From Thiocapsa bogorovii (GTDB lineage Bacteria; Pseudomonadota; Gammaproteobacteria; Chromatiales; Chromatiaceae), in contig NZ_CP089309.1 of assembly GCF_021228795.1 (NCBI RefSeq), positions 2,666,001 to 2,730,000 on the forward strand: DNA of 64,000 nucleotides. Direction: 5' to 3'. The position numbers and the translations under genes are program-made. Below the pieces are notes generated by a model, which worked only from the letters and a program-made list of their open reading frames with translations, had not been told where the DNA came from and searched no databases. Each line of letters begins with the position of its first letter. The first letter of the stretch is position 1. Positions 10,980 through 54,183 of this stretch are shown here, piece by piece.

Positions 10980-11063
10980 CTGAACCGCGCCCCGCCAAGG
11001 CCGCGGCCTGCTCACAGGACCGCCTAAACCCCGACACCGCGGATCACACGAAGCGCGGTTCAG
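10980..11063. repeat. Stop-codon-associated inverted-end repeat, single module (copy E)
   Basis: 84 bp bounded by CTGAACCGCG (10980-10989) and its exact reverse complement CGCGGTTCAG (11054-11063). The right end, read on the minus strand, contains the TGA stop of the ferredoxin gene. The left end lies about 40 bp before the nifO start. Same family as 11365-11564, 25839-25923, 46376-46570 and 53990-54183. Confidence 0.85.
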
Positions 11064-11338
11064 CGGGCCTGGATCTGGGTGCGGATCTCCGCCCACCGAT
11101 CCGGCGGGATTCCGGTCAGCGACCCCGGAGGATTCACCGGCACGCCGAGCCCATCGAGAATGACCCCCTCGATCGGGCAGATGCTCGCGCACTGCGGATC
11201 GGCGAAGTCGCCCTCGCACTCCGTGCAGGCGCGTGCGTCGATCATGAAATGCGGGAGTGCCTCGCGAATCGCCTCGCTCGGACACAGGGGCAGACACGCC
11301 CAGCAATTCACGCAACCCTCGATAATCTTGAATGCCAT
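11060..11338 (-). CDS. 4Fe-4S ferredoxin downstream of nifB (FdxN-type)
   Basis: 92 residues. There are two cysteine clusters: CVNCWACLPLCP and CTECEGDFADPQCASICP, the second with the long insertion between the second and third Cys typical of chromatium-type 2[4Fe-4S] ferredoxins. The gene directly follows nifB, the position of fdxN in many diazotrophs, where it supports NifB-co synthesis. Start at MAFKII. The stop codon TGA lies inside the terminal inverted repeat of copy E. Confidence 0.92.
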   Translation of the reverse strand: MAFKIIEGCVNCWACLPLCPSEAIREALPHFMIDARACTECEGDFADPQCASICPIEGVILDGLGVPVNPPGSLTGIPPDRWAEIRTQIQAR

Positions 11339-11364
11339 GAATGGACCTCCGCTGCCTTTGCGAG

Positions 11365-11564
11365 CTAAACCGCGTCCAGAGGGCAATGCGTCGTTTGCGT
11401 GGCGGGTCGGACGCGAGGGTCTTTCCGACCTTTGCGGAGACGCGGTTTAGAATTTAAAAGTTACTCGTGTTTCATTCTTAAACCGCGCCGACTCCAACGC
11501 TCGTTCAGCCTGCCGGGGCCGATCCCATCCAAACCCATCGCGTACCGCACCGGGCGCGGTTTAA
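11365..11564. repeat. Stop-codon-associated inverted-end repeat, double module (copy C)
   Basis: About 200 bp between nifB and the ferredoxin, in reverse orientation to copies A and B. Ends are CTAAACCGCG (from 11365) and CGCGGTTTAA (to 11564). An inner CGCGGTTTAG / TTAAACCGCG pair flanks an A/T-rich linker (about 11450-11485). The right end on the minus strand supplies the nifB TAA stop. Its reverse complement matches copies A and B over long stretches, including CCCGGTGCGGTA and AACGACGCAT. Confidence 0.9.
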
Positions 11565-13072
11565 GCGCTCATCCGATGCATGGCGCCGTCGGGCCGATCG
11601 AGCAGCCCAGCCTCGTCCATCTCGCGATACACCGCGGCGACAGCGTCCTCGATCGGCTCCATCGCATGCTCGCCGTTCGGAACAATGCCCGCGGCCTCCA
11701 ACTGACCCCAAGGCTCGTAGCCGATGCGCGAGCAGAGCACGACCTCGCAGCCGTCGAGAACACGGATGGTCTTGGCCAGAACCGACTCCCCATCGCCGCA
11801 GGTCTCGTCGCCCGAGCAGTAAAGATCGACCTTGCGATGACCGATGAAGCGCACGTCGTTCGTGCTGGCCTCATAGACCAGGAACTCGCGGGCGTGGCCG
11901 AAATGCTGGTTGATCACGCCGCCGCCCATGGTCGCCACCGCCATCAAAACCGGACGAGGCTCGGGGCGCGCGGGGCGGCGCCGGGTCAGGGCGGCGATCG
12001 AGACGAAGGTCTCGCTGGACTGGCGACGTTGGGCGGTACGACTGGCCTCGATGGCCGCATGGACCTCAGCGCGACGGGCCATCGCGGCGGCATAGTCGAC
12101 ATCTTGCTCGGCGATCTTGTCGAGCGTGAACTCGTCGCCCCGATCCTCGCCGAGCATGCCGACCGCATCCGCGCGGCATTGGCGGCAGTGGCGCATCATG
12201 GCCATGTCCCCGGCGCAGGCGTCCTGCAGCGCGCTCAGCTCTTCGTTGGTCGGACCGCGCTGGCCCATCATCCCGTAGAAGGTGCCGTGCTCGGGCTCGG
12301 CGATCAGCGGCATCACATTGTGCAAGAAGGCGCCCTTGGCCTTGACGACCCGGCTGACCTCCTTGAGGTGCTCGGCGTTCACGCCCGGAATCAGGACCGA
12401 GTTGACCTTGACCAGGACACCGCGCGCGACCAGCATCTCGAGTCCCTTCTGCTGCTGCTCGATCAAGATCTCGGCCGCCTTGCGTCCGGTCACTCGGCGG
12501 TTGTTCCAGAAGATCCAGGGGTAAATCTTGGCGCCGACGTCCGGGTCGACACAGTTGATGGTGATGGTGACGTGCTCGATGTTGTGCTTGCAGATCTCGT
12601 CGACCAGACCGGGCAGCGCGAGTCCGTTGGTGGAGACGCAGAGCTTGATGTCGGGGGCGTTTTCGGAGAGCTGGCGGAAGGTCTCCAAGGTGCGTTGCGG
12701 ATTAGCAAGCGGATCGCCCGGACCGGCGATGCCGAGTACCGTCATCTGGGGTATGGCCGCGGCGACCGCGATGACCTTCTTCACCGCCTGTTCCGGAGTC
12801 AGCACCTCGGAAACGACACCCGGGCGTGACTCGTTGGAGCAATCGTACTTGCGATTACAGTAGTGACACTGGATGTTGCAGGCGGGTGCGACGGCGACGT
12901 GCATCCGCGCATAGTGATGATGCGCGTCCTCCGAGAAACAGGGATGATTGTTGATCTTGGCGCGGATGGCCTCGGGCAGATGGGCGAGCTTATCGCCGCC
13001 GGCACCGCAGCCGCTCGACGCGCAACCACCGCCGGGCGCGCCCGCGGCATCGGCAATCACCTTCAACTCCAT
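11561..13072 (-). CDS. nifB: Nitrogenase cofactor biosynthesis protein NifB (radical SAM + NafY-like domain)
   Basis: 503 residues. NifB makes NifB-co, the 8Fe-9S-C core of FeMo-co, by radical SAM chemistry. The SAM cluster motif is CNIQCHYC (Cys65, 69, 72), followed by NRKYDC, GIAGPGDPLAN and ITINCVDP. An N-terminal GGGCASSGCG and later CRQCRADAVG provide more cluster ligands. The C-terminal ~130 residues (VATMGGGVINQHFGHAREF) are the NifX/NafY cofactor-binding domain. I prefer the ATG at 13070-13072, 7 bp after GGAGG, over the GTG just before it. It is first in an eight-gene operon with a sigma-54 promoter and NifA-like site upstream. The stop lies in repeat copy C. Confidence 0.97.
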   Translation of the reverse strand: MELKVIADAAGAPGGGCASSGCGAGGDKLAHLPEAIRAKINNHPCFSEDAHHHYARMHVAVAPACNIQCHYCNRKYDCSNESRPGVVSEVLTPEQAVKKVIAVAAAIPQMTVLGIAGPGDPLANPQRTLETFRQLSENAPDIKLCVSTNGLALPGLVDEICKHNIEHVTITINCVDPDVGAKIYPWIFWNNRRVTGRKAAEILIEQQQKGLEMLVARGVLVKVNSVLIPGVNAEHLKEVSRVVKAKGAFLHNVMPLIAEPEHGTFYGMMGQRGPTNEELSALQDACAGDMAMMRHCRQCRADAVGMLGEDRGDEFTLDKIAEQDVDYAAAMARRAEVHAAIEASRTAQRRQSSETFVSIAALTRRRPARPEPRPVLMAVATMGGGVINQHFGHAREFLVYEASTNDVRFIGHRKVDLYCSGDETCGDGESVLAKTIRVLDGCEVVLCSRIGYEPWGQLEAAGIVPNGEHAMEPIEDAVAAVYREMDEAGLLDRPDGAMHRMSA

Positions 13073-13132
13073 CACGTTGCCTCCGGAGAAGGGGCACAGG
13101 CCCCGCGGAAAGATGTCTCTGGAAGCATTAGA

Positions 13133-13148
13133 GCAAAGACCGTGCCCG
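13133..13148 (-). promoter_or_regulatory. Sigma-54 (-24/-12) promoter of the nifB operon
   Basis: Minus strand reads GGGCACGGTCTTTGCT. GG and GC are exactly 10 bp apart and the context matches the consensus YTGGCACG-N4-TTGCW at most positions. It lies about 60-75 bp before the nifB ATG, a normal distance. Confidence 0.85.
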
Positions 13149-13210
13149 GTCTTTGCGATGAATTAACCGACTGAAAAAATTACAGGCGAGCGCAATTGAG
13201 CCCAGGGTCT

Positions 13211-13226
13211 GTCGGGATCGCGACAG
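13211..13226. promoter_or_regulatory. NifA-type upstream activator site (TGT-N10-ACA)
   Basis: TGTCGGGATCGCGACA is a TGT-N10-ACA site and a good palindrome, about 65 bp upstream of the -24 element. Its spacing and dyad fit NifA enhancer binding. A longer imperfect dyad, TTGAGCC...GGCTCAA, flanks it at roughly 13197-13261. Confidence 0.75.
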
Positions 13227-13273
13227 CCCTGACACAACCGACGTGTGGGATTTGGCTCAATGCCCGACACCGC

Positions 13274-14116
13274 TTAAGGTGTCGACCGAGCCTCACCCCC
13301 AGCGGCAGGGAGTCGCGCCAAGGGGTCTTGCCGGTAAAACAGCCGCATCTGCTCGTAGACCGCCGGGTATTCGGAATGGACAAGATCGGGCAGCTCGAAA
13401 AAACCTTCGCTGAGCACGGCGAAGAACTCGGCGGGCGACTCGGTCGCGTAGGGGTCGATCGGGGTCTCCTCGTCGTCGTCGACCCGTCGACACAGGTCCT
13501 CGTAGGCAGCGGAGAAGGTCTCCGCCCAGACCTTTGGAGACATGCCTGCGTGCAACGGCGGGCAGCCGTTGGCGGCCCCGTCGCGCATGTCGAGCTTGTG
13601 GGCCAACTCGTGGATCACGACGTTGTAGCCGTCGCGGGCCATCCCGGCCTCGACATCCGCCCACGAGAGGATGACGGGGCCTTGTTCCCAGGCCTCGCCG
13701 CTTTTGGCTTCGTGCTCGGTCCAGACCACGCCGTCCTCGCCCATGATCTCGCGCTCCGGGACGAACTCCTCGGGATAGACGATGACGGCATACCAGCCGC
13801 GGTACCAGTCAAGCCCGAGTTCCAGCACGGGAAGACAGGCTTGCAGGGCAATCGCCAGGCGCATGGCATCGGTGAGCTCAAGCCCTTGCGCGGGATCCAG
13901 ACGCTTGTCGCGCAGAAACAAGAGCGCAAGATCGGCGAGACGCCGCATTTCCTCTTCGTTCAGGTCCTCGAGCAGCGGGAGAGTGTCCCGGACTTGCGCC
14001 CAGTCCCGGGGATCGACCCGCGCACGCTCGCGTTCGAGCACCCGCGCCTGCCACCAACCGGTTAGACCGCCCACGGCTCTGCCTGCCGGGGAGGTCGAGC
14101 ACGGCGGGAACCGCAA
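13274..14116 (-). CDS. M90-family zinc peptidase, MtfA-like
   Basis: 280 residues. The zinc motif is VIHELAHKLDMRDG (HExxH), with the conserved upstream YPEEF and W-rich helix (GLDWYRGWYAVIVYP) and downstream AAYEDL and YATESPAEFFAVLSE (third-ligand Glu region) of the MtfA family. In E. coli MtfA binds Mlc and links glucose signalling to proteolysis; in other bacteria its target is unknown. It lies upstream of nifB on the same strand but ends before the NifA site, so it is not part of the nif operon. The first ~20 residues are not family-like, so a later start is possible. Confidence 0.88.
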   Translation of the reverse strand: MRFPPCSTSPAGRAVGGLTGWWQARVLERERARVDPRDWAQVRDTLPLLEDLNEEEMRRLADLALLFLRDKRLDPAQGLELTDAMRLAIALQACLPVLELGLDWYRGWYAVIVYPEEFVPEREIMGEDGVVWTEHEAKSGEAWEQGPVILSWADVEAGMARDGYNVVIHELAHKLDMRDGAANGCPPLHAGMSPKVWAETFSAAYEDLCRRVDDDEETPIDPYATESPAEFFAVLSEGFFELPDLVHSEYPAVYEQMRLFYRQDPLARLPAAGGEARSTP

Positions 14117-14266
14117 AATCGGGGCGAATGGCGCGGCGCACGGGTCCTATCGCACAAAAGCCCGGACCCATCCGGGTCTTCGCCGTATGATTGACGTGCG
14201 TCAAGGCGAATCGCACCCCGCTGCCCAAGATGCGGGGATCGACTTTTCCCGGTGGGGCTCCCGATC

Positions 14267-14917
14267 GTGACGCGAAAGCTGTTGATCATCGTTATCCTGA
14301 TCCTCGTCGGACTCTTGGCATGGCTGTCGTTTTGGTCCCCGACCGAGGTCGGTATCGATCCGGAGGCGCCGCAACACAATGCACTGGATCTGGCCTCGCC
14401 GCCGCAGGGCGGCGACTTCGTCCTCGACTCCGTGAACGGCCCGGTCGCCCTCGCCGATCTGCGCGGCAAGGTCGTCCTGATCTATTTCGGATACACCTGG
14501 TGTCCGGACATCTGCCCGACCAACCTGGTGTTGATCGCCGGAGCGCTCAAGGCGCTGACGCCCGAAGAGTTGGAGCGGGTCCGGGTCCTCTTCATCAGTG
14601 TCGATCCCGAGCGGGATTCGGCCACGCGGCTCGCCGAGTATAGTGGCTATTTCCACCCCGAGATCCTCGGCCTGACCGGAACGAGCGAGCAAATCGCCGA
14701 GGTCGCCAAACTCTACGGTGCAGCCTACCGACGTACCGACCTGGACGATTCGGCGATGGGCTATGTCGTCGATCACTCCGCCTACACCCATGTTGTCGAC
14801 ACGCAAGGTAAGCTCGTGCTCAACCTCGATCATGCCACGCCCTCGACGGATATCGTGGCAGCGATCCGAAACCTGCTGGGATCGAGCCCGTCGACCGAGA
14901 ATCAGTCCAAACCTTAG
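14267..14917 (+). CDS. SCO1/SenC/PrrC-family copper chaperone
   Basis: 216 residues from GTG 14267 (an alternative GTG lies at 14252). One N-terminal membrane helix (LLIIVILILVGLLAWLSFW) anchors a periplasmic thioredoxin-fold domain. The copper ligands are the CPDIC pair in GYTWCPDICPTNL and the distal His in VVDHSAYTHVVD. Such proteins deliver copper to the CuA centre of cytochrome c oxidase or act as thiol-redox sensors. The PCuAC chaperone follows after 44 bp, and the two probably act together on a copper oxidase encoded elsewhere. Confidence 0.92.
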   Translation: MTRKLLIIVILILVGLLAWLSFWSPTEVGIDPEAPQHNALDLASPPQGGDFVLDSVNGPVALADLRGKVVLIYFGYTWCPDICPTNLVLIAGALKALTPEELERVRVLFISVDPERDSATRLAEYSGYFHPEILGLTGTSEQIAEVAKLYGAAYRRTDLDDSAMGYVVDHSAYTHVVDTQGKLVLNLDHATPSTDIVAAIRNLLGSSPSTENQSKP

Positions 14918-14961
14918 CAAGCCGAATCTCGAACCCTGTACCGTCTGTCGGAGGACAAGTC

Positions 14962-15420
14962 ATGCCCGGATACGCATCGCCACTGCTCGCCGCCACGCTC
15001 TTCACCGCCCTGTCCTGCTCCGCTCTCGGCGCCGAGGTCTCGATCGGCGATCCCTATGTTCGGGCGGTACCGCCCGGCCAACCGAACAGCGCCGTCTTTA
15101 TGTCTCTGGAAAACCAAACCGGAACGAGTCAGGCGCTGGTCGGTGCCGAGAGCGCCGTCTCGGAGAGTGTCGAGCTGCACACCCACGTTGAAGAAGGCGG
15201 AATGATGCGGATGCGCCGGATCGAGAAGGTCGCGATTCCCGCAGGGGAGACGGTCACCCTGAAACCCGGCGGCCTCCACGTCATGCTCCTCGGCCTCAAA
15301 CAACCGCTCGAGCCAGGTGAAACGGTCGATCTCACCCTGATCTTCGAAGACGGATCGCGCATGCCCGTTCAGGCCCCGGTGCGCCGCATCGAGGTGCAGA
15401 TGCAGCAGATGAACCATTGA
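14962..15420 (+). CDS. PCu(A)C periplasmic copper chaperone
   Basis: 152 residues with a signal peptide ending near ALGA. The Cu(I) site H-x10ish-M-x21ish-H-x-M is visible: ELHTHVEEGGMMRMRRI then GGLHVML. The family takes copper to the CuA site of cytochrome oxidase with SCO proteins, which matches the SCO1-like gene just upstream. The C-terminus ends in a Met/His-rich QMQQMNH that may bind more copper. Confidence 0.93.
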   Translation: MPGYASPLLAATLFTALSCSALGAEVSIGDPYVRAVPPGQPNSAVFMSLENQTGTSQALVGAESAVSESVELHTHVEEGGMMRMRRIEKVAIPAGETVTLKPGGLHVMLLGLKQPLEPGETVDLTLIFEDGSRMPVQAPVRRIEVQMQQMNH

Positions 15421-15739
15421 CGGACTGGACCGGCGCCGAGAGACACGAGCATCAAGGCGCGGCGGGGACCGATCCGTCATCGCCGCTCGAACCTGAATAC
15501 CGTCAATACGCCCATGGCCAAGCGATCCGGATCACAGCGGCGCGGGGCGGAATTATTCGTCTCTTTGTCTGTCTCTGAGCAGGCGAGACAGCGTCATCTC
15601 GCCGGACACTTGGCGCCGCTGGTTTGACCCATATGCGGATGTTCTGATATACATCCGTGGATTTTCTCGCCCCCCGACCAGGCCGCCGATCCGCACGAGG
15701 CGTCGCGGCCATGAATCACGACCCGATTAGGCATCCTCC
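15421..15739. other. Intergenic region before cytochrome c4, with promoter
   Basis: About 320 bp. It holds the strong sigma-70 promoter listed at 15624-15653. I see no gene and no clear intrinsic terminator for the copper-chaperone pair. Confidence 0.5.
15624..15653 (+). promoter_or_regulatory. Probable sigma-70 promoter of the cytochrome c4 gene
   Basis: TTGACC (15624-15629), an 18-bp spacer and TATACA (15648-15653), about 87 bp before the ATG at 15740. Confidence 0.6.
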
Positions 15740-20558: not shown

Positions 20559-22907
<2,349 letters not shown>

Positions 22908-24030: not shown

Positions 24031-25838
<1,808 letters not shown>

Positions 25839-25842
<4 letters not shown>

Positions 25843-25923
25843 ACCGCGTCCGGAGCAACAGGTGGGGTTCGAGGGTGAATTCAGCCTCGTCACGACAACC
25901 GGCGACGGCTGTACGCGGTTTAG
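25839..25923. repeat. Stop-codon-associated inverted-end repeat, single module (copy D)
   Basis: 85 bp, from CTAAACCGCG (25839-25848) to CGCGGTTTAG (25914-25923), a perfect 10-bp inverted end pair. The left end contains the typA TAA stop. The interior is unlike copy E, so the ends are the conserved part. Confidence 0.85.
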
Positions 25924-42990: not shown

Positions 42991-44952
42991 ATGCTGGACC
43001 ACGACATGGCCGATACCGAACGCTTCGAGGAGCTGATTCAGCGTTCAGTGCGACAAATCCTGCTTGCACCGGATCCGGACAGCTTCCTGGACTGGGCCCG
43101 CGGTCATCTCCCCGAGCTGCTCGGGTTGTCCGGGGCAGAGTTCGACGAGGTGGAGCGGCGACGCCTCGCCAATCTCCTCGGAACCGCGATCTGGAACGCG
43201 ACCCCGCAGCCGGCCTACGCCTTCCAGACCCGATTGATGACGCCTCACCCCCCCGAGGAACCCTGCTCATGTGGCTCGGGAAGCCCTTACGGCGAGTGCT
43301 GCGGCGCCCTCAACGAAGTGCCGGAACTCTCGAGCGATCTGGTCTGGGAGATCCTGCTCGACGAGCTGTCCGAGCAGGGTCTGCGCGAGGCGTTGGACCT
43401 GCACGCAGTACCCGAGCCACTGCTTGCCCGCATCGCCGATCGGTGGCTGACGGAGGATCGGCCGAAGCGCGCGGCGGCTCTCTTGGAACCCCTCTTTGCT
43501 GGCTCGCTGGAAGACCTCGACGGGGAGTTCGAGCCGTCGATCGACATCCTGTGCGATGCCTACGATCGACTCGGTCATCGGCGCAAGAAAGAGGCGTTCC
43601 TCGAGCGGATCTGCGACGAGGCTAGCCGATCCTTGCGGGCTGCGGCCTGGCAGCGGCGTTGTACCATGGCGATCGACAACGGCGATTTCGCCGAAGCCGG
43701 CGCAGCCTTCACAGCCGCATTGCGAAGCGACCCGGACAATCCGGGTACGGCGATCCTCGAAATCACGCTGCTCGCGGCTCAGCACAAGGATTGGATCGCT
43801 CGCGAACGCGCCCGCTTCTGGCTCTTTCGGTTCCGTCAGATCGGGTTCACGCATCCCGGTATCTTGGACTTCCTCGCACGTGCCGTCGAGGACCCGCAGG
43901 AAGCGCTCGTGGACAGCCATTCGGATGCCCTCGACCCGGTTCTGCTCGACCTCCTCGATTGGATCTCCCTGATTGAAGCCCGTCCGATGCCCGCCTATTG
44001 CTTGGAGCCGCTGAACACCTACGCTCCCGGTTGGCTGCCTGGTCAACTCGCGCTGTTCGACGACCTCGATGCCCCCATGCCGGACGGGGCCGACGATGAC
44101 GCGGTCCTCGGCCTCTCGCGGTATGCGCCCAGCCCCGCGCGACTGAGCGCTCCGCCGGCAGTGCGCCGGCTCGAAACGCAGTGGAGGTCGGTCTTTCCGA
44201 CGGCCAAACCCGATTCGACCCGACTCGTACCCGCGGAGGACGTCGACCTCTGGGCGACGCCCGACTGGCTCGACCACCTGTTGGCCAACCCCGCGCTCGC
44301 GGACAGCCTGGATGTCCTGGACGATCTCGCGACCGCGCTGTACCTGCACCCCGAGAGCACGCTGCCGTGGATCTCCCACCTGCTGTTGCGTCCCCTCCTC
44401 GAGCGCGCTCGCGGCATTCTGGAGCAAGTTCTCCCCGAGGATGCCCCGCAACACATTCCCTGGTCCGCCCCGCCGAATCGCCCTGCGTTGCGACTGCTCT
44501 TCCGACAGTATCTGTGCCAGATCGACGAAGACGAGCCTAACGGTGCGGCGCGCACGCTAGAAACCCTGCTGCGCCTCAACCCGCGGGACAACCACGGCGT
44601 GCGCGCGGAGCTGATGAATTATTATCTGCGCGACGGCCAAGACGAGCTGGCGTTGGCGCTGGCCCGTCGCTTTCCCAACGATGGGCTGGCGGATCTCGCC
44701 TACGGCGAGGTTCTGGCCCTCTACCGTCTCGGGCGGCAGGACAGGGCGCGCCTGGTGCTGACCACTGCCGTCAACCGCTTGCCGAGAATCCCACAGTATT
44801 TGACCCGAAAACGCATCAAGCGCCCGCGCTTTGCCCCGCCGGACACCCTCCCCGGCGGCGACGACCAGGCCTGGATGTACCGCGAGGCGATGCGCGACGT
44901 CTGGGCGGCGGAACCGGGCATCCTCGCCTGGCTGAGACGCCTGACCGCCTAG
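42991..44952 (+). CDS. SEC-C motif protein with TPR-like helices
   Basis: 653 residues. A SEC-C zinc motif (PCSCGSGSPYGECCG, residues 91-105) follows an N-terminal helical segment. The rest is helical, with TPR-like pairs (AWQRRCTMAIDNGDFAEAGAAFTAALRSDPDNPG; ARTLETLLRLNPRDNHGVRAEL). SEC-C domains bind zinc and sometimes contact the translocon or ribosome. GGAGGAG lies 6 bp before the ATG. It is divergent from the STAND gene with about 220 bp between, so a shared regulatory region is possible. Confidence 0.85.
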   Translation: MLDHDMADTERFEELIQRSVRQILLAPDPDSFLDWARGHLPELLGLSGAEFDEVERRRLANLLGTAIWNATPQPAYAFQTRLMTPHPPEEPCSCGSGSPYGECCGALNEVPELSSDLVWEILLDELSEQGLREALDLHAVPEPLLARIADRWLTEDRPKRAAALLEPLFAGSLEDLDGEFEPSIDILCDAYDRLGHRRKKEAFLERICDEASRSLRAAAWQRRCTMAIDNGDFAEAGAAFTAALRSDPDNPGTAILEITLLAAQHKDWIARERARFWLFRFRQIGFTHPGILDFLARAVEDPQEALVDSHSDALDPVLLDLLDWISLIEARPMPAYCLEPLNTYAPGWLPGQLALFDDLDAPMPDGADDDAVLGLSRYAPSPARLSAPPAVRRLETQWRSVFPTAKPDSTRLVPAEDVDLWATPDWLDHLLANPALADSLDVLDDLATALYLHPESTLPWISHLLLRPLLERARGILEQVLPEDAPQHIPWSAPPNRPALRLLFRQYLCQIDEDEPNGAARTLETLLRLNPRDNHGVRAELMNYYLRDGQDELALALARRFPNDGLADLAYGEVLALYRLGRQDRARLVLTTAVNRLPRIPQYLTRKRIKRPRFAPPDTLPGGDDQAWMYREAMRDVWAAEPGILAWLRRLTA

Positions 44953-45050: not shown

Positions 45051-46379
45051 ATGGAAGGACGCTATCGGATCCTCTACGCCGGCGAACTCATGCCAGGCCA
45101 TGCATTGCAGGACGTGGTGCCGCGGCTGGCGGCCAAGTTCAAGCTCACGGAGGAAACCGCTCGGGATCTGATCCTCGGCGGCTCCGGTCGAGCGCTGAAG
45201 CACGGCTTGACGACCGGCGACGCGCAGCGCTATCGGGACGCCCTGAGCACCATCGGACTGAAGGTGACCATCGAGCCCGAATCCTCGATGAACACCGCAC
45301 CGGGACCCGCCGGCAGTCGACCGGAGGGGATCATCGAGCCGCCGGCGACTAAACGTCGCGGCGTCGAAGCCTCGTCTCGGTACGACGACGGACGACGCCA
45401 GGGCGACGGGCGACAGACCGGCGGCGTTCGCCCCGGGAGCGAGCCCGACAGCGGACCCGAAGGTAGTCCGACACGCTGCCCGAAGTGTGGCGCCGAGGCC
45501 GTGTCGAAGCTCACGGGCGTTTGTCAGGCCTGCGGAGTGGTGGTGGAGCGCTACCTTGCCAACCGCGGGATGAGCCCACCGAGCCGTGTCGACAACCCCT
45601 ATGCACCGCCGCAAGCCGATTTGACGCCGCCTCTCAACGAGAGTGAGGAAGACGCGCTGCAGGCACCGCAATCAAGGCCCGCCGGGCACGGTTGGCTGTG
45701 GATCACCGAGGCATGGCAGCTGTTCAAGTCACAACCCTGGGCATGGATCGGCGCGCTGGTGTTGTTCTACATCATCCTGATCCTGGTCAGCATCGTGCCC
45801 TTCGTCGGCAGTTTGGCGGTCACCATCCTGACACCGATGCTCAGTGCCGGACTCATCATCGGAGCACACCGCCAATACCGGGAGGGCCGCTTCGCAATCA
45901 GTCACCTCTTTGCGGGTGTCTCGGAGAATCCGGGGCCGCTCGCCTTGGTGGGTGTCGTCTACCTACTGCTGGCACTCGGCATCGTGATTGTCGCCGGAGC
46001 GCTGTTCGCCGCGGTCTTCGCCGCCATGGGAAGCGCCGTGGATCTGTCGACGATGGACCCGAACGACATCGACATCGTCTTCGCCAACCCGATGATCCTC
46101 CTTCCGGTGCTGGCGGCGATGCTGCTCGGTATCCCGCTCGCAATGGCCATGTTCTTCGCCCCGAGCCTGGTTGCGCTCGACCAAGTTCCGGTGCTCAAGG
46201 CGTTTGGACTCAGCCTGTCCGGCTGCCTGAAGAATGTCCTGCCCTTCCTGATCTACGGGCTGGCCGCCATGGTGCTGGTGATCCTCGGCTCCCTGCCCCT
46301 GATGCTCGGGCTCCTGGTTGTCGTGCCCGTCCTGACCATCGCGATTTATACGGCCTATCGCGATATCTTTTACGTCTAA
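45051..46379 (+). CDS. BPSS1780-like multi-pass membrane protein with zinc ribbon
   Basis: 442 residues. Residues 1-76 form a small domain (GELMPGHALQDVV...ARDLILGGSGRALKHGL). A zinc ribbon follows (CPKCGAEAVSKLTGVCQACG, residues 143-161) after a Gly/Arg-rich linker. From about residue 212 the BPSS1780-type membrane domain has five or six helices. Function unknown. AGGAGA precedes the ATG. The TAA stop is part of repeat copy A. Confidence 0.85.
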   Translation: MEGRYRILYAGELMPGHALQDVVPRLAAKFKLTEETARDLILGGSGRALKHGLTTGDAQRYRDALSTIGLKVTIEPESSMNTAPGPAGSRPEGIIEPPATKRRGVEASSRYDDGRRQGDGRQTGGVRPGSEPDSGPEGSPTRCPKCGAEAVSKLTGVCQACGVVVERYLANRGMSPPSRVDNPYAPPQADLTPPLNESEEDALQAPQSRPAGHGWLWITEAWQLFKSQPWAWIGALVLFYIILILVSIVPFVGSLAVTILTPMLSAGLIIGAHRQYREGRFAISHLFAGVSENPGPLALVGVVYLLLALGIVIVAGALFAAVFAAMGSAVDLSTMDPNDIDIVFANPMILLPVLAAMLLGIPLAMAMFFAPSLVALDQVPVLKAFGLSLSGCLKNVLPFLIYGLAAMVLVILGSLPLMLGLLVVVPVLTIAIYTAYRDIFYV

Positions 46380-46570
46380 ACCGCGCCCGGTGCGGTATGC
46401 GCCGTTTGTTGGACTGGCTTGGCCGCGCCGGCTCCGACAATTCTCGGAGCCGGCGCGGTTTAAAGTATTAAAAAATCTTAAATTCTGAACCGCGTATCAC
46501 CGGGATCCAGGATATCTCCGAAGCCAAACGAACAATGAAAACGACGCATGTCGCTCTGGACGCGGTTTAG
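46376..46570. repeat. Stop-codon-associated inverted-end repeat, double module (copy A)
   Basis: 195 bp between two convergent genes, both of whose stop codons lie inside its ends: CTAAACCGCG at 46376 and CGCGGTTTAG to 46570. Module 1 ends at about 46464; an A/T-rich linker of ~23 bp follows; module 2 starts with TGAACCGCG. Module 1 holds a perfect 15-bp stem (CCGCGCCGGCTCCGA with TCGGAGCCGGCGCGG, 6-base loop) followed by TTTAAA, which could act as a terminator. Confidence 0.92.
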
Positions 46571-48663
46571 CGGCGATTTCGCACGGCCGATCGAACGGGG
46601 CGACGGCGACCTTCCGGAGACAGGCCCGTACCGGCGGGTTGGAAGGCCGGTACGAGGTGACGCTTGCCGTTGCCGATGAGCTCGGAACGGCCCATCTCCT
46701 TCAGGGCTTCGCGCAACAGCGGCCAGTTCTCCGGATCGTGGTAGCGCAGGAATGCCTTGTGCAAACGCCGCTGGCGCTGCTTACGCACCACGGGGACCCG
46801 CTCCGAATCACGCGTCACCTTTTTCAACGGATTGCGACCCGAGTAATACATGGCCGAGGCGGTCGCCATCGGGGTGGGCAGGAAGCCTTGGACCTGGTCG
46901 GGGCGGAACCCGTTGAGCTTGAGCCAGAGCGCGAGATTCAGCATATCTTCGTCGCTGGTACCCGGATGGGCGGCGATGAAATAGGGAATGAGATACTGCT
47001 CCTTGCCGGCCTCGCGCGAATAGCGATCGAACAGCTCCTTGAATCGATCATAGGTCCCGATACCGGGTTTCATCATCTTGCTGAGCGGTCCGGCCTCCGT
47101 ATGCTCGGGAGCGATCTTGAGATAGCCGCCGACATGATGGGTCGCCAGCTCGCGGATGTACTCCGGCGAGCGCACCGCCAGGTCGTAGCGCAGCCCGGAG
47201 GCGATCAGCACCCGCTTGATGCCGGGAATGGCACGCGCACGGCGATAAAGCCGGATCAGCGGGGCGTGATCGGTATTGAGATTCGGACAGACATCCGGGT
47301 AGACGCATGACGGACGCCGACAGGAGGACTCGATACGCGGATCCTTGCAGGCGAGTCGATACATGTTGGCGGTGGGTCCGCCGAGGTCCGAGATGGTGCC
47401 CGTGAAGCCGGGGGTGCGGTCACGGATCTCCTCGAGTTCGCGCAGGATGGACTCCTCCGAGCGACTCTGGATGATGCGGCCCTCGTGCTCCGTGATCGAG
47501 CAGAAGGTACAGCCGCCGAAACAGCCGCGCATGATGTTGACCGAAAAGCGGATCATCTCCCAAGCCGGGATCCGCGCGTCCCCGTAGCTCGAATGCGGGC
47601 GGCGGCTGTAGGGCAGCTCGTAGACCCGATCAAGCTCGGCGGTGCTCAGCGGGATCGGCGGCGGATTGAGCCAGACATCGCGATCGCCGTGGGCCTGCAC
47701 CAGCGCGCGGGCGTTCCCCGGATTGGTCTCCAGATGAAAGACCCGTGAGGCATGGGCGTAGAGCACCGGGTCGGCGCGGACCTGCGCGAACGATGGCAGG
47801 CGCACCACCGTGCGGGTGCGATCCATGCGTTGCGGACGCGGCTGAAACCGGATGACCCGAGCCCCGTCGGGGGTCGCCGCTGATGCGGTCGCGTCGGCAT
47901 CCTTCGGGGCGACCGCGTACGGATCGGGATGCGGATCCACACGGCCCGGTCGATCGAGCCCGCTCGAATCAATCTCCGCCCACCCCTCCGGCCGGCCGCG
48001 TGTCATGAAGGCGGTCCCGCGCAGATCGCGGATCTCCGCGATCGCCTCGCCGCGCGCCAGTCGGTGCGACAGCTCAACCAGTGCACGCTCGGCGTTCCCG
48101 TAGATCAGGAGATCGGCCTTGGCGTCCACTAGGACGGAGCGGCGAACCTGCTCGGACCAATGATCATAGTGGGCGATCCGCCGCAGGCTCGCCTCGATGC
48201 CCCCGATCACGATGGGCACGCCCTTGAAGGCCTCGCGCGCGCGCTGCGCATAGACGGTCACCGAGCGGTCGGGGCGGCGGCCCGCGGCACCGTCCGGCGT
48301 ATAGGCATCGTCCGAGCGCAGTCGCCGATCGGAGGTGTAGCGGTTCACCATCGAGTCCATATTCCCGGCAGTGATCCCGAAAAACAGGTTCGGCTGTCCA
48401 AGGCGTCGGAAATCCTCGACCGAGGTCCAGTCCGGCTGGGCAATGATGCCGACACGAAAGCCCTGCGCCTCGAGCAGTCGACCGATGATCGCCATTCCGA
48501 ACGAGGGGTGATCGACGTAGGCATCCCCGGTCAGGATCACGATATCGCAGCTGTCCCAACCGAGCAGATCCATCTCGGCGCGCGACATGGGCAGCTCCGG
48601 GGCGGTCCCCAGCTTGTGGGCCCAATGCTTGCGGTGGGAGAAGATGTCGGGTGCAGTCATCAT
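46567..48663 (-). CDS. YgiQ family radical SAM protein
   Basis: 698 residues. Typical YgiQ features: N-terminal [37 protein letters not shown], the radical SAM cluster [19 protein letters not shown] and LKIAPEHTE further on. The C-terminal [18 protein letters not shown] and [17 protein letters not shown]-like end match the family. Substrate unknown. Two adjacent ATGs (48661-48663 and 48658-48660) are possible starts. The TAA stop lies in repeat copy A. Confidence 0.93.
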
Positions 48664-48675
48664 CGGAAGGGCCAA

Positions 48676-48716
48676 ACAAAAAAGACGGCGGTTACCGTTG
48701 AGGTCACCGCCGTCTT
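48676..48716 (-). terminator. Intrinsic terminator after rpoH
   Basis: Perfect 11-bp inverted repeat (AAGACGGCGGT at 48682-48692 with ACCGCCGTCTT at 48706-48716) around a 13-base loop, followed on the minus strand by TTTTTTG. It lies about 105 bp beyond the rpoH stop and directly upstream of the YgiQ gene. Confidence 0.9.
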
Positions 48717-48821
48717 GGTTTCGGTGTGCGGGGAACGAGGAAGCCGGTAAGGGAGTCCCGGTGACCACGGCGAGAGCGGATTCGAGAGGCGCCGGTCGCC
48801 TCCCGCCGCGTCCCCACCGCG

Positions 48822-49661
48822 TTACACCTCGAGCTGGAGCCTCAGCTTCTTCATCGCATTCTTCTCGATCTGGCGAATGCGCTCTGCCGACACGCCAAAC
48901 TGCTCGGCGAGCTCATGCAGGGTCTGCTTTTTCTCGGAGAGCCAGCGCTCGCGCAGGATCGTCTTGCTGCGCTCGTCGAGCCCCTTGAGAGCCGCATAGA
49001 GCCGATCGTGCTGATCACGCTCGGTGTCTTGGCGCTCGAGGATCTTGCCGGGCTCCATCCGCAGATCCGGCAAGTAGGTCGAGGGCGCGGAGGGCGAATC
49101 GTCGTCGTCGTCTTCCAGGCCGTCGAACGACAGATCCTGATTGGCCAAACGCGATTCCATCTGCAGGACGGTCTCGGGCTTCACGCCCAGATCGGCCGCA
49201 ACTGCCTCGACCTCCGCCTTCGTAAACCAGCCCAGGCGCTTCTTCGCACTGCGCAGGTTGAAGAACAGCTTTCGCTGGGCCTTGGTCGTCGCAACCTTCA
49301 CGATCCGCCAGTTCCGCAGGATGTACTCGTGGATCTCCGCCCGAATCCAATGGACGGCGAAGGAGACGAGACGCACGCCCATGTCGGGCTCGAAGCGACG
49401 AACCGCTTTCATCAAGCCTACAGTACCTTCCTGGATCAGATCCGGGAGCGGCAACCCGTAGCCGAGATAACCCCGTGCGATTCGGATGACGAAACGAAGA
49501 TGCGACGTGACCAGCCTTTTCGCCGCTTCCATGTCGCCATGGTCGCGCAGTTGGATGGCGAGCGACTTTTCTTCTTCCGGGGTCAGGACCGGAATCTGGT
49601 AGGCGCCGCTAATGTAAGAGTCGATGGTACCCGTCGGCATGAGAGCGAAGTCTTTGGCCAT
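48822..49661 (-). CDS. rpoH: RNA polymerase sigma-32 factor RpoH
   Basis: 279 residues. Heat-shock sigma factor. Region 2.1-2.4 ([54 protein letters not shown]) and the RpoH box (QRKLFFNLR) are clear, and region 4 ends with the usual helix-turn-helix ([20 protein letters not shown]). It has its own promoter and an intrinsic terminator. Confidence 0.97.
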
Positions 49662-50061
49662 GATCCAATACCTGAGTTTGTTACCTTGGAAAATATCCTA
49701 GCAGTACGCTCGGGATTTTGCCAGCACTTTCGGCGGGGTTTTGGAGCGTGCACCGCGACAAAAGTTCACCAGACTCTAGGAGAGGATCGTGGATTCGGCA
49801 AGACAGATGCGGTCAAAATCAAGATCGTATGTTCCGATGATGTTCATCGCCCGCACTGATGATGAATAATCCATCTTAAAAACAATAGTTTGAAATTCGA
49901 AAAAGATTCTTCAGAGGCCGTTTGCGAAGTCTTTTCACCCTGAACATTTATGGGATTTAATCTCGAGAACCTGTTCAAGCGGTAGACGGCATCTTGCGTC
50001 GACGAAACCTCCTCAAGACCCCGGAGGGCCGGATGCCGAGGCGCATCCGCTGGAGGTCGGC
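49662..50061. other. Intergenic region upstream of rpoH and downstream of the response regulator
   Basis: About 400 bp, with an A/T-rich central part (49850-49960). It contains the rpoH promoter listed separately. Beyond the response regulator stop a GGATGC-N6-GCATCC dyad on the minus strand (about 50032-50049) could be a weak terminator. I see no open frame or RNA gene that I can support. Confidence 0.5.
49695..49724 (-). promoter_or_regulatory. Probable rpoH promoter
   Basis: Minus strand CTGGCA (49719-49724), 18-bp spacer, TAGGAT (49695-49700), about 35 bp before the start codon. Each box matches sigma-70 consensus at four of six bases. Confidence 0.5.
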
Positions 50062-50547
50062 TCACAGGTCCCCTCGCTCACCCACGATCGGGAGTGCCCG
50101 CTCGGTATCCAGGACGGCGAGGTGCGGCAAGGGATCCACACCCGCAGCGAGGACGAATTCGGTGAGTTGGTCCCGGACGAGGTTGCGCAAGGCATCCGCC
50201 TGCCAGGGCTTGGCGACGTAGCGATCGAGACCGGCCTCGTTGATGGCGCGGATGGTGTCGTCTTGATCGGCCTGGCCCGTCACCAGGACCTTGCGTGTGG
50301 CGACGGCCCGAGCGTCGGCTGCGAGGCCGATCAGAAAATCGACACCGGTGGTTCCGGGTAAACGATGGTCGGCCATCACGAGTGCGAGCCGATCGCCGGC
50401 CGCGTCGATCTCCTCGATCACCTCCAGCGCGGTCGGCACGTCCTCGGCCTCCTCGATGCGGACATGACGCGCAAACGTGGAAAGGTCGCGTCTGAGCGCC
50501 TCGCGGACCGGGCGCTCATCCTCCAGAATCAAGAGTGCTAGTTTCAT
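50062..50547 (-). CDS. Single-receiver response regulator
   Basis: 161 residues: a CheY-like receiver (LILEDERPVREAL; phospho-acceptor Asp in VMADHRLPG; VLVTGQAD; Lys in VAKPW) with a ~30-residue tail and no DNA-binding domain. It overlaps the histidine kinase stop by 4 bp (ATGA). Output is probably by protein contact or phosphotransfer. Confidence 0.92.
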   Translation of the reverse strand: MKLALLILEDERPVREALRRDLSTFARHVRIEEAEDVPTALEVIEEIDAAGDRLALVMADHRLPGTTGVDFLIGLAADARAVATRKVLVTGQADQDDTIRAINEAGLDRYVAKPWQADALRNLVRDQLTEFVLAAGVDPLPHLAVLDTERALPIVGERGDL

Positions 50548-52538
50548 GTCTCGATGTCCTCGTCGTCCGGCGGGCCGGCCACCGGCAGCATCACGGTCAC
50601 TCGCGTGCAGCCGGGGCGTGAGCGCAACTCGATCGACCCGCCGTGAGCATCCACGATCCGCCGCGCGATGGCGAGCCCGAGCCCGAGCCCGTAGCGCACG
50701 GCACCCTGCTTGGTGGTAAAGCGCGGCTCGAAGACACGCGGCAGGATTTCCGGATCGATCCCGCGCCCTTTGTCCAGTATCTGCACACGCACACGCGTCG
50801 CGTCGGGTGCATCCGTGATCAACGTAATGCGCCCATGATCTTTGGAGCCGTCTCCGAGTGCGTCGCGCGCATTGACCAGGAGGTTGGTCCAAAGCTGCTC
50901 AAGCTCGCCGGGGTGGCAACGCAGCGGAGGCAAATCGCCATAGCGACGCTCGATCTCGACATCGCGCAGGCGGTACGCCATGAGACGCAGCGTGTCTTCG
51001 AGACCCGCATGCAGATCGACCCCGGAGACCGGCTCGCCCTTGGGCCGGGCGTAGGCGCGAAGGCTCGTCACCAGCTCGCACATCCTTCGCGAGGCGACCT
51101 CGAGGTTGCGCACCGCAGAGCCGATTCCGGCGACCGCCTCGGCCAGATCCAGGCTCGGCGGATCGGCGGCGAGCGCGCTCGCCCGGTCGGGATCCTCGAT
51201 CCCGGCATCGAATAACCGTTGGGCGAGAGCGACATCGCCGAGGACCGCTTCGAGTCGTCGACGCGCCGCGCGCTCTTCACGCGTGGTCCGCGGGGCGCGG
51301 TCGCGCTCGGCCGTGAAGATCTCGCTGGCCAGCCGGCCCTGCGGATGGCTCGCCAGCACGCGCTCCAGATCCTCGCCGACATAGGTGGTCGCGCGCAGCA
51401 TAGCCGCGACCGGATTGTTGAGCTCATGGGCAATCCCGGCCGCCATCTCGCCGAGCGTGGCATAACGCGCCTGCTCGACCAGATCCAGGCGCGCCTGCTC
51501 GAGCTGATGCAGCGCATCGGAGAGCTGCCGACGTTCGCCTTCCAGGACCTGGTTGAGCTGGGTCTTCTCGACCTGGAGCTGGTCGGCGCGACGCAGCCGC
51601 TTGGCCAGGGCGCGGATGGAGACCGCCGCCATTGCCGCGCCGAGCGAGGCGTCGACGGCCAGCGCGCGATCGAGCTGCTCGAATGAAAGATGCACGACCT
51701 CGACCTCGGTCGTCGCACGCGCGGTGAAGAAGGCGCGCTGCTGCTGGGCCAGCGACAGCAGGCCGACAACCGATCCGGTGGAATCGTGGTGCAGCCGCAG
51801 GTCGCCCGCGGCCGAGGCATGGTCGAGCGCGACCCGGCCCCGCAGCACGACCAACACGGCATCGACATCGACGCCCTCGTGGATCAGGTGCGTCCCGGGC
51901 GGGAGCAGCAGACGCGGTCGCGGACCCAGGACACGCTCGATCCCGGCGAGCAGTTGCGTCGCGACCTCTTGCGTCTCGAGCTCGAGCAGACGCAGCAGAT
52001 CGCTCTCGGGCTGCGCGACCGGCCGACCGTCGGTTGCCACAAGGGCGCGGGTCCGCGGATCGGTCCGTCGATGCGCACTCAGCCAGCGAACAGCTTGGGC
52101 ACGCGCGTGCCAGGCAAGGACGCCGGGCGAGCACGGGATCCTGATTACGGCATGCAGTCGGTGGCGGTCGACCGACAGGGATAGGTCATCGTGGAACGCT
52201 CGGTCGGTGAGGAGCAGGACGCGCGCTCGGCGCAGGACCGGCCGGGCGTCCAGCGTCGCGATGCGCGTGTCGATTGAATCGGGTGAGCCGGGCGACGCGG
52301 GCGAGGCCGTCATGAGCACCAGCGGGACGACGCGGTCCGGATGTGCACTCGACTGCGCACAGGCCGCCGCGACATTGTCCGCGCAGACCACCTCCGCGAT
52401 GTCGGTCAACCCGCGCGCCACCTCCTCCGCGATCGAGGAGGCCAAGGGCTCGGGCGCTACGACCAAGACACACAACGGGGCGCGCGGATCGCCCGCACCC
52501 GTACCCTCATGACCACCGCGATGGAAGACCTCGGTCAT
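50544..52538 (-). CDS. Hybrid sensor: receiver-like + cyclic-nucleotide-binding + histidine kinase
   Basis: 664 residues. N-terminal ~170 residues look like a degenerate receiver (LCVLVVAPEPLASSIAEEV). A cNMP-binding/CRP-like beta-barrel follows (LLLPPGTHLIHEGVDVDAVLVVLRG). Then a coiled coil, the HisKA box with GEMAAGIAHELNNPVAAM, and HATPase_c (LWTNLLVNARDAL, DKGRGIDPEI, GLGLGLAIARRIV). It shares ATGA overlaps with the transporter before and response regulator after it, so it may sense substrate transport or a cytoplasmic ligand. Confidence 0.9.
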   Translation of the reverse strand: MTEVFHRGGHEGTGAGDPRAPLCVLVVAPEPLASSIAEEVARGLTDIAEVVCADNVAAACAQSSAHPDRVVPLVLMTASPASPGSPDSIDTRIATLDARPVLRRARVLLLTDRAFHDDLSLSVDRHRLHAVIRIPCSPGVLAWHARAQAVRWLSAHRRTDPRTRALVATDGRPVAQPESDLLRLLELETQEVATQLLAGIERVLGPRPRLLLPPGTHLIHEGVDVDAVLVVLRGRVALDHASAAGDLRLHHDSTGSVVGLLSLAQQQRAFFTARATTEVEVVHLSFEQLDRALAVDASLGAAMAAVSIRALAKRLRRADQLQVEKTQLNQVLEGERRQLSDALHQLEQARLDLVEQARYATLGEMAAGIAHELNNPVAAMLRATTYVGEDLERVLASHPQGRLASEIFTAERDRAPRTTREERAARRRLEAVLGDVALAQRLFDAGIEDPDRASALAADPPSLDLAEAVAGIGSAVRNLEVASRRMCELVTSLRAYARPKGEPVSGVDLHAGLEDTLRLMAYRLRDVEIERRYGDLPPLRCHPGELEQLWTNLLVNARDALGDGSKDHGRITLITDAPDATRVRVQILDKGRGIDPEILPRVFEPRFTTKQGAVRYGLGLGLAIARRIVDAHGGSIELRSRPGCTRVTVMLPVAGPPDDEDIET

Positions 52539-53947
52539 AGCAAACCCAGCGCGTTCCAAACCGACGGCATCACGAGCGCCAGCAAGAGCGCCCCGAAGCC
52601 GCCGATCACGACTCCGCTCACGATCATCTCGGAGGTCGGCACCTCGCCGGTCGCGTAGGCGATCGCGTTCGGCGGCGTGGAGATCGGCAGCGCCATACCG
52701 AGTGCGCAGGCGAGCGCCACCATCACGCCCACCGCGGTCGGATCGATCGGCAGCCCGATCGCCAGGCTCAGGGTCAAAGGCACCAGCAGGTTCGCCGCCG
52801 CGGAATGCGAGATCACGGTCGAGAGGCCCACCGAGACACCCACCAAGAGGAGGAGCAAGAGCGACAACGGAAGGGCCTCCCAGGCAACCAATCCGATCAG
52901 CCAAATATCCAGCCCGCTCGCACCGATACCGGCCCCCAGAGCGATTCCGCCGGCGACCAACCAGAGCACCGGCCATTGCAGGCGCTTGATGTCGTCCGCG
53001 CCCATGACCTGCGTCGCGAGCAACGCGACAACCGGGAGGAAGCCGACCGTCGAGGAGGCGATGCCGTGAAAAGGCTCTGTCAACCAGAGCAGAACGGTGG
53101 CACCGGCGATAACGTAGAAGATCACCGCGGCCGGCGAGCGGTCGAAGTCGGCCGAGAGCTCGAGCGCCAGCGGAATATCGGCGGCGATGTAGCGGCGCGT
53201 CAGAAACCACCAGGCGAACAGCAGTACGACCACCATCAGCGGCACGGCCAAGAGCATCCAGCCAATGAACGAGATACCCTGACCCGACGCCTCGAGCGCA
53301 CCCAGCGCGATGGCATTGGGCGGTGAACCGACCGGCGTGCCGATCCCGCCGACGTTCGCAGCAACGGGAATGGCCAAGGCCACGCCGCTGCGCGCGCGGC
53401 CTCTCGGAAGTGCGGCCAGGATCGGAATGACGACCGCAAACATCGTGGCCGTGGTCGCGGTGTTGGAGACGAACATCGACAGCAGCGCCGTGATCATCAT
53501 GAGCCCGAGCAGCGAGAGTCTGGCGTTGCCGGCGAAAGGTCGCAGCATCATCGCCGCGAGACTGCGGTCCAGTCCGAACTTGCGGGCACCGTCCGCGATC
53601 AGGAAGCCGCCGAGAAAGAGGATGATGACGGGATTCGCCAGGGCTGCGAAATAGCTCGCCGCGGGCGGCAAGGTACCGGCGACCCCGACCAGCGCCTGAT
53701 CCGAGAGCATCAGGACCTGAAGCAGGATCACCAGCACCGCCGTGGCGTACAGCGGGATCGCCTCCGAAACCCAGAAGAGGATCGCCAGCAGAAAGATCGC
53801 CAGCATCCGGCGCCCGGCCGGCTCCAGGCCGGGGATCTCGATCAAAAGCGGGATGAGAAATGCAACCGAGCCCAGGACCAACCCGAGACGCTGCACGAGG
53901 GTGAGACGCGGCAAGTTGACGCGCGGTCGAGCGGTCGGGGTCGACAT
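52535..53947 (-). CDS. DASS/SLC13-family anion transporter
   Basis: 470 residues with about 11-12 membrane helices. The two family motifs are present: SNTATTATMF (SNT motif) and, near the C-terminus, SHSAAANLLVP, with the paired GIGTPVGSPPNAIAL and ISTPPNAIAYATG hairpin loops. Such transporters take up dicarboxylates, sulphate or other anions with Na+. In a sulphur bacterium C4-acids or sulphate are reasonable guesses. It is the first gene of the transporter-kinase-regulator operon. Confidence 0.92.
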   Translation of the reverse strand: MSTPTARPRVNLPRLTLVQRLGLVLGSVAFLIPLLIEIPGLEPAGRRMLAIFLLAILFWVSEAIPLYATAVLVILLQVLMLSDQALVGVAGTLPPAASYFAALANPVIILFLGGFLIADGARKFGLDRSLAAMMLRPFAGNARLSLLGLMMITALLSMFVSNTATTATMFAVVIPILAALPRGRARSGVALAIPVAANVGGIGTPVGSPPNAIALGALEASGQGISFIGWMLLAVPLMVVVLLFAWWFLTRRYIAADIPLALELSADFDRSPAAVIFYVIAGATVLLWLTEPFHGIASSTVGFLPVVALLATQVMGADDIKRLQWPVLWLVAGGIALGAGIGASGLDIWLIGLVAWEALPLSLLLLLLVGVSVGLSTVISHSAAANLLVPLTLSLAIGLPIDPTAVGVMVALACALGMALPISTPPNAIAYATGEVPTSEMIVSGVVIGGFGALLLALVMPSVWNALGLL

Positions 53948-53989
53948 CGGTGAAAGGAGTCCTGATTGGATTCGGGGTTTGAGTCGGAT

Positions 53990-54183
53990 CTAAACCGCGC
54001 CCAGCGCCGTATGCGAGGTTTCGGATGGGACCGGCCCCGGCAGGCTGTACGGCCGTTGGAGGCGGCGCGGTTTAAAATATAAATAAATACATTGTCGAAG
54101 AGCGCGTCAGGCGCGACGCCTAAGGTTCCGGCCGAGGCCGATCCAACCCAACAACGGCGCGTGCCGCTCCAGACGCGGTTTAG
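53990..54183. repeat. Stop-codon-associated inverted-end repeat, double module (copy B)
   Basis: 194 bp between ftsX and the DASS transporter, same orientation as copy A. Ends CTAAACCGCG (53990-53999) and CGCGGTTTAG (to 54183), with an inner CGCGGTTTAAAATATAAAT linker start. The right end supplies the ftsX TAA stop. The reverse complement of copy C shares GGATGGGA and GGCCCCGGCAGGCTG with it. Confidence 0.9.

Follow-up and report, generated by a model that had tools for sequence, protein, structure and literature searches.

The 64,000-nucleotide stretch of the Thiocapsa bogorovii genome analysed here (the window; positions 2,666,001 to 2,730,000 of a 5.65-Mb single contig, or G000:C1:2666001-2730000 in our numbering) carries five copies of a repeat whose tips supply the stop codons of six neighbouring genes, namely fdx, nifB, typA, a gene for a 442-residue protein, a gene of YgiQ type and ftsX (Table 1). 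A preliminary description, made from the letters alone, had reported these five repeats and six stops, and all of them are present, although three of the five are pairs of units and the CTRA ends ascribed to them are one form of a fuller YTRA class. That the repeats lie only between genes nearly holds for the family at large, since a position more than 30 nt into a predicted gene was found for 2 of 423 units (3 of 150 in a laxer first pass). Genes were called by a codon-usage script, with no curated annotation; the best Pfam match of the fdx product is Fer4_9 (26.1 bits, slightly below the cut-off of 27), and the two domains listed for the radical SAM gene are those by which we take its product to be a YgiQ.

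Table 1. Repeat units, the genes that they terminate and one empty site in the window (positions counted from its first nucleotide).
Feature	Position	Strand	Remarks
Single unit, 86-bp type, CTGA...TCAG ends, arm 1 right	10980..11063	-	right tip is the TGA stop of fdx
fdx	11060-11338	-	TGA stop in repeat tip
Left unit of inverted pair, arm 1 outward (left)	11365..11450	+	
AT-rich pair spacer, 27 bp	11451..11477	.	
Right unit of pair, TTAA ends	11478..11564	-	right tip is the TAA stop of nifB
nifB	11561-13072	-	TAA stop in repeat tip
typA	24031-25842	+	TAA stop in repeat tip
Single unit	25839..25923	+	left tip is the TAA stop of typA
CTAG at TAG stop of gene 42991-44952, empty here	44949..44952	+	occupied in G098, G102 and G099 (unit or pair)
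442-residue protein gene	45051-46379	+	no Pfam match; earlier zinc-ribbon label not confirmed
Left unit of inverted pair	46376..46463	+	left tip is the TAA stop of the 442-residue protein gene
AT-rich pair spacer, 21 bp	46464..46484	.	
Right unit of pair	46485..46570	-	right tip is the new TAA stop of the YgiQ-type gene
YgiQ-type radical SAM gene	46567-48768	-	PF08497 and DUF3362; TAA stop in repeat tip
Left unit of inverted pair, CTAA...TTAA	53990..54075	+	
Spacer and decayed right unit, good arm 1 (arm-1 scan score 35.5)	54076..54183	-	right tip is the TAA stop of ftsX
ftsX	54180-55178	-	TAA stop in repeat tip

The repeat family is real and abundant and is known, in the survey made here, from Thiocapsa and some other Chromatiaceae. 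Strict CTRA-type matches on one strand of the T. bogorovii genome (G000) number 119 and strict TTRA-type matches 113, with none of either in the reversed control. The sampled sequence comprised an unbiased 1.26-Mb chromosome block and 120 named loci selected for exact CTAA ends; a relaxed scan (YTRAACCGCG at both ends, at most two mismatches over both together, 80-96 bp) found 130 units in the block and 423 with the named loci added, as against 2 matches in the reversed control of all those sequences (about 2.2 Mb). The strict CTRA form occurs in 7 of 96 genomes of the family Chromatiaceae and the strict TTRA form in 8 of 11 Thiocapsa genomes, the other three (G096, G100 and G103) having no strict TTRA unit, and the 98.6 kb of them that was scanned containing no unit of any form. 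Among the matches listed by a contig scan for CTAA ends only are T. marina 5811, Thiocapsa sp. KS1, T. roseopersicina DSM 217, two Thiocapsa metagenome-assembled genomes (MAGs), Thiobaca trueperi, Thiocystis minor, Thiosymbion and a Thiodictyon MAG, and a few Chromatiaceae MAGs; two others listed fall outside the family, L024 (a MAG named "bacterium") and L122 (Chloroflexales). Short, bounded by terminal inverted repeats and present in many copies, the units answer to the description of miniature inverted-repeat transposable elements (MITEs), their coding capacity being judged by length alone. Among the open-licence papers listed by literature searches none describes such a repeat in Thiocapsa, and as far as these searches show the family is undescribed.

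A unit measures about 86 bp (84-88 bp typical, with lengths centred on 86-87) and consists of two inverted 12-bp ends (YTRAACCGCGYC) around a variable middle; the palindrome spans 12 bp, and inward of position 12 the two sides show no in-register pairing. A two-arm model resolves the unit into arm 1, conserved over the greater length (roughly YTRAACCGCGYCCGG.GCGa.ATGCg..gTTT), and arm 2, which is shorter. Units stand singly or in pairs, with an AT-rich pair spacer whose commonest length is 21 bp (127 pairs), and a common composite of about 195 bp reads arm1-arm2 / AT-rich spacer / arm2-arm1. This orientation is found in 126 of 136 pairs, which makes arm 1 the outer end of a pair. An AT-rich stretch follows arm 2 in 83 of 201 singles and arm 1 in 3 of 201, and many singles therefore look like decayed pairs. 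Dozens of non-syntenic matches to window positions 46377-46570, among those listed, have about 84-93% identity and start or stop at the tips or several bases off them; it looks as if the inverted pair moves as one, the mobile form being the pair of about 195 bp. Two irregular forms were also seen: units cut down to 25-47 bp by loss of internal sequence, their tips being intact (L057:828 and 4410, L071:5185, and those of L187 and L188 at the fdx and nifB stops, respectively), and tandem repeats of the tip, in which YTRAACC.. stands once, twice or three times ahead of a unit in steps of at most 11 bp (L069:2123, L055:2829 and several stops).

The association with stop codons is a property of the family and extends well beyond the window. 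Across the unbiased block, a tip serves as the stop of a gene in 46 of 95 clusters of units; the 95 clusters adjoin 112 gene 3' ends, 49 of which stop exactly at the tip (offset +1), while 20 more stop 3-12 nt before it. Of the 54 gene stops that fall inside units in the block, 49 lie at the tip, four at offset 17 and one at 54, against a frame expectation of 1/3, and the preference for stop codons proposed from the window thus holds when scored at this scale. At the named loci, chosen as they were for exact CTAA ends, 103 of 231 adjacent gene 3' ends stop in the tip. Tips in the block supply TAA 39 times, TGA 8 times and TAG twice, the stop usage of block genes overall being 714 TGA, 198 TAG and 185 TAA. 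Another 64 stops lie 2-12 nt ahead of a unit, and many of them resemble part of an additional tip, those at 9-10 nt being the clearest; at up to four mismatches, however, the resemblance is found at 42 of the 64 and, as a baseline, at 456 of 1020 stops remote from any unit, so that only near-perfect cases are informative. A partial extra tip stands at the typA stop in five of eight carrier genomes.

With elements of ambiguous arm assignment excluded, 171 stops are supplied by arm 1 and 13 by arm 2. As a functional signal this polarity does not hold up, being mostly accounted for by the position of arm 1 as the outer end of a pair. No arm bias is seen among co-directional singles that have a gene within 80 bp of arm 2 (12 to 13); co-directional singles lacking any AT-rich spacer, taken together, turn arm 1 towards the end of the upstream gene in 48 cases and arm 2 in 21 (p 0.0016), which speaks against the outer-end explanation, and undetected decayed partners may lie behind this bias.

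Mobility is indicated by presence and absence at orthologous sites: 118 rows in 44 clusters have no detected unit, many of them precise and others poorly aligned or decayed. Where both flanks align, copy-free relatives usually have 4 bp in place of YTRA...TYAR. The empty site is CTAG at L015:2610 and at the site of the G098 copy L210:3676, where G101, G097 (T. marina) and G000 have it as the TAG stop of the gene itself, KS1 having TTGA; it is CTAA at L187:16802, L187:19114, L188:18167 and L193:3516, TTAA at L210:16338 in most genomes compared (TTAC in G102), and TTAC at L114. At the nifB site, KS1 and T. roseopersicina have no pair and read CTAA, the nifB stop itself. The CTAG that ends gene 42991-44952 is empty in the window, and its occupied counterparts have TAG changed to TAA at the same protein length. 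Empty YTAR sites of 4 bp fit duplication of TA, because the change of C-TA-G into C-TA-(AACCGCG...CGCGGTT)-TA-G would give them. Insertion at stop codons, as first suggested for the window, is thereby supported, the comparison showing that the stops existed before it; the possibility raised against it, that the ends predate the element as ordinary gene sequence, is borne out in part, for in clean cases the TA or the stop at the site is older than the element. A unit follows fdx, intact, shortened or decayed, in six other carrier genomes, all those with the site shown. The typA stop of L197 (G103, a genome without a strict TTRA unit) reads TAAACCGCCGCCGGCGTGAC, perhaps a decayed tip, and in KS1 (L091:5595-6218) the spacer in which T. 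bogorovii has three units carries long simple repeats of CCTTCAG and GGCTGGT type.

Protein ends are for the most part preserved. With "filled" defined by at most two mismatches in the 10-base tip, the whole unit not being required (some rows are chance matches), and with pairs excluded in which both tails run more than 15 residues beyond the alignment, genes that have a tip-like stop and an ortholog without one show a best length difference of 0 residues in 41 of 54 cases. The difference is 0 in 72% of 111 such comparisons and in 82% of 903 control pairs, and proteins shorter by more than one residue make up 23% of the former and 8% of the latter, so that most insertions preserve the protein end and a minority truncate. 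In the window, C-termini described as normal are so for five of the six genes, judged by repeat-free relatives. The fdx stop falls at the identical codon in G096, G100 and G103, that of nifB in KS1, T. roseopersicina and G100 (the nifB ends differ in G096 and G103), and that of the 442-residue protein gene, as TGA, in G098, G102, G099, T. roseopersicina and KS1; typA ends as in G103 and one residue short of G096, with G100 diverging earlier, and ftsX stops at the equivalent place, as read from alignments to G103 and G096. The exception is the YgiQ-type gene, whose tip stop comes 6 codons ahead of the stop used in T. roseopersicina and G098.

We consider it reasonably probable, at about 0.6, that the units, as has been proposed for RUP, are TA-duplicating, non-autonomous mobile palindromes of MITE type, which can land safely on stop codons. 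A transposase of Tc1/mariner/IS630 type, acting in trans and now lost or not found, would make the insertions, each duplicating the 2-bp TA inside a YTAR site. Several of the empty sites are a gene's own TAA or TAG, and because the tip adds AA after TA, landing there rebuilds the stop as TAA and leaves the protein length unchanged. In a GC-rich genome packed with genes, stops and the next few bases would be the TA sites at which insertion does least harm, and copies would pile up there. The stop-codon habit would thus be mostly explained by landing in TA-containing stops that the tip rebuilds, and after landing the ends of a unit would be kept complementary by hairpin selection or replication-based palindrome correction.

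How far this account covers the preference can be gauged from the occupancy of YTAR sites outside genes in the block, counted for TA-type ends only and with tip duplications assigned to the stop. Units occupy 42 of 208 such sites at stop codons and 9 of 36 at 2-12 nt after them; the counts are 11 of 230 for sites that lie beyond this, up to 120 nt downstream, and 31 of 469 for sites upstream of starts, which makes 51/244 in the stop zone (stop plus 12 nt) versus 42/699 elsewhere (odds 4.1, p 4e-10); without the restriction to TA ends and the reassignment, the figures are 49/215, 21/48 and about 8%. The direction is the same, weakly, in G102 (11/46 versus 12/106, p 0.05) and at four T. marina and G098 loci (13/23 versus 15/46, p 0.07). 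Across species, occupancy is 124/270 at stop-type and 64/91 at distal sites (124/225 versus 64/77 with the three unit-free genomes excluded), the distal sites forming 19 clusters only, and clusters without a nearby gene 3' end are shared least (8/30). Copies at stops are therefore shared between species less than distal ones, which leaves functional retention at stops unsupported, and we read the excess there as mainly relaxed purging. Its cause is probably a TA-centred target combined with neutrality where the stop is rebuilt, and not recognition of the stop codon as such; these two would account for the excess in part. This roughly fourfold site preference is, together with covariation within units, what a specialist would not expect.

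The ends, once in place, change little. Their conservation was examined with perfect-end queries only, in 220 unit-by-genome comparisons of which 146 were scored (gap 60-110 bp); 89 of these (54 query units) had a subject not chosen for the repeat, several sharing a locus and a few having very low interior identity, so that they may be non-orthologous. Differences in the 89 occupied comparisons amount to 84 of 1780 end positions and 1167 of 5516 interior positions, where, given perfect-end queries, about half the interior rate at the ends would be neutral. Within pairs, the two ends of a unit correspond at bases 0, 2 and 10 (odds 43-563), base 5 covaries within left units only, and between the two outer ends of a pair no base is significantly positively associated. 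A palindromic target is ruled out as the cause, the covariation lying within the unit and not between outer ends. Both ends switch jointly between A/A and G/G in 3 of 95 ortholog pairs and one end changes in 7; in one of the joint switches (L071/L113) the middles are unlike, and replacement may be the cause. The typA unit keeps perfect tips in seven of eight carrier genomes while its middle drifts. Correction of palindromes during replication is a known mechanism; this and selection on a hairpin would both keep the ends complementary, and RNA tests did not favour the latter. The middle of the unit has no RNA structure beyond that of shuffles (mean z 0.06, n=77), and pairing of a terminator-like hairpin in arm 1 is not above shuffles across 458 copies. 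Units do not qualify as intrinsic terminators, with two matches inside the 46376-46570 pair and none in the typA unit. Sense-strand G-U outnumber A-C mismatches 92 to 60 (p 0.012), but the convergent control, in which no bias is expected, gives 35 to 19 (divergent, 9 to 15), and a sense-strand wobble bias is thus unsupported. An Rfam covariance-model search of the window at the gathering threshold gave no match to the repeat; its only match is a thiamine pyrophosphate (TPP) riboswitch at 20568-20731 (+).

Such ends invite the explanation that the repeat serves its host as a gene-end hairpin, the RNA stem that holds the stop being a terminator, an mRNA 3' stabiliser or a processing site. The slower divergence of ends than middle, the covariation at stem positions 0, 2 and 10 (5 in left units), the ortholog pairs switched at both ends and the perfect typA tips above a drifting middle all agree with it; we nonetheless hold it to be unlikely, as stop sites are not better conserved than distal ones (few as the distal clusters are), the middle lacks structure, the G-U bias is mirrored in the convergent control and the arm-1 hairpin pairs no more than shuffles. 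Alternatively, insertion might be steered to the places where translation ends (the stop and about 12 nt after it), over and above the effect of TA targets and neutrality. The occupancy contrast speaks for this, the more so as the rate elsewhere is alike downstream and upstream of genes, but G102 and the T. marina and G098 loci agree only weakly, purifying selection at other intergenic sites could yield an equal excess, and the higher sharing of distal copies fits such selection; we know of no route by which a DNA transposase could sense a stop codon, and find directed insertion very improbable. A further reading, in which a mobile hairpin is biased to the termination zone (stop plus about 12 nt), its tip is built to recreate the stop, its ends are held complementary by selection and more than a third of its copies now act as host stop and 3'-end structure, seems doubtful to us as a whole. 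To much the same degree we doubt that the repeat is REPIN-like, YTRA tagging the base of a hairpin that a RAYT/Y1 transposase would move in single-stranded form. Inverted ends, a variable middle of fixed length and compensatory changes match the REPIN description (PMC3116915), and T. bogorovii has 14 PF01797 (Y1 transposase) genes (loci L229-L242); yet the 45,840 bp around them hold one unit (at most two mismatches), 1.3 kb from a gene and below the block average, so that no RAYT linkage was found in this genome, and a different REP family may be the one served by these genes. The end consensus lacks the tags that mark the two large REP super-families, GTAG and CGTC (PMC3733652), no separate tag search having been made, and the 4-bp empty sites fit TA duplication.

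Insertion by TA duplication, which we prefer, has its own difficulties. Several empty sites are not TA (TTGC, TTCC, GTCG, GTCA, CTGA, TTGA and others), and several genes with a TAA tip stop have TGA stops only in the relatives compared, for which prior TGA-to-TAA changes or a looser target are needed; CTGA...TCAG units gave no clean empty site among the orthologous loci compared. Simple TA insertion would have the target supply the outermost base, and does not predict the observed covariation of that base with the inner end of its unit. None of the four PF13358 (DDE_3) loci of T. bogorovii has the repeat's ends, and the sequence scanned (about one fifth of this genome and parts of others) contains no convincing full-size autonomous copy. 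Long pairs of the 10-mers are at chance level, with 887 solo ends and 915 in the reversed control. Inverted arm-1 pairs at L066:133-2045 (scores 18 and 22; 1.9 kb, around one predicted gene) and L068:3572-4118 (scores 32 and 13; 0.55 kb) are possible larger relatives. An identity as integron attC was set aside, the units being scattered over the genome and their end sequence unlike the attC core.

Among known systems, IS630 inserts at TA within CTAG and IS870 uses its target to form a stop codon; these, in contrast to the Thiocapsa repeat, are full insertion sequences, and the stop formed is that of the transposase itself. RUP, a 107-bp element with inverted ends, 108 intergenic copies and a TA-containing target, for which mobilisation in trans by IS630-Spn1 has been proposed (PMC2229807), is likewise a mobile palindrome with TA-type sites, whereas the Thiocapsa repeat has no found parent insertion sequence, occurs in inverted pairs, has diverse interiors of fixed length and often supplies stops. 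This last habit had been thought to be without a named precedent, wrongly, as the BOX element of S. pneumoniae encodes the stop codon of 36 genes with no strong evidence of truncation (PMC3049150). BOX, likened here by description and not by sequence, is modular (boxA, B, C) and belongs to an unrelated host, and the available text of that paper contains no site-occupancy test. REPINs are inverted doublets with a variable spacer of fixed length, compensatory changes and singlets that are decayed doublets (PMC3116915); the Thiocapsa repeat resembles them in doublet architecture and end covariation and differs in its lack of RAYT linkage (in its own genome), its end sequence and its TA-type empty sites. 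Correia/NEMIS and ERIC elements, too, are small, with TA at the termini and inverted ends (PMC2229807), again a likeness of description and not of sequence, and Correia elements are bound by RNase III (PMC2649163). In a 2024 review of prokaryotic MITEs (PMC10969869), the terms "stop codon" and "IS630" are absent from the main text as available.

The repeat is a clean example, found in nature, of a mobile element that does no harm by landing where its own tip puts back the signal it breaks, and because 3 of the 11 genomes of the genus lack a strict TTRA unit, comparison can tell target preference, purifying selection and later co-option apart. Annotators, too, should be warned that repeat DNA can form the stop codon of a conserved gene, as it does for typA and nifB.

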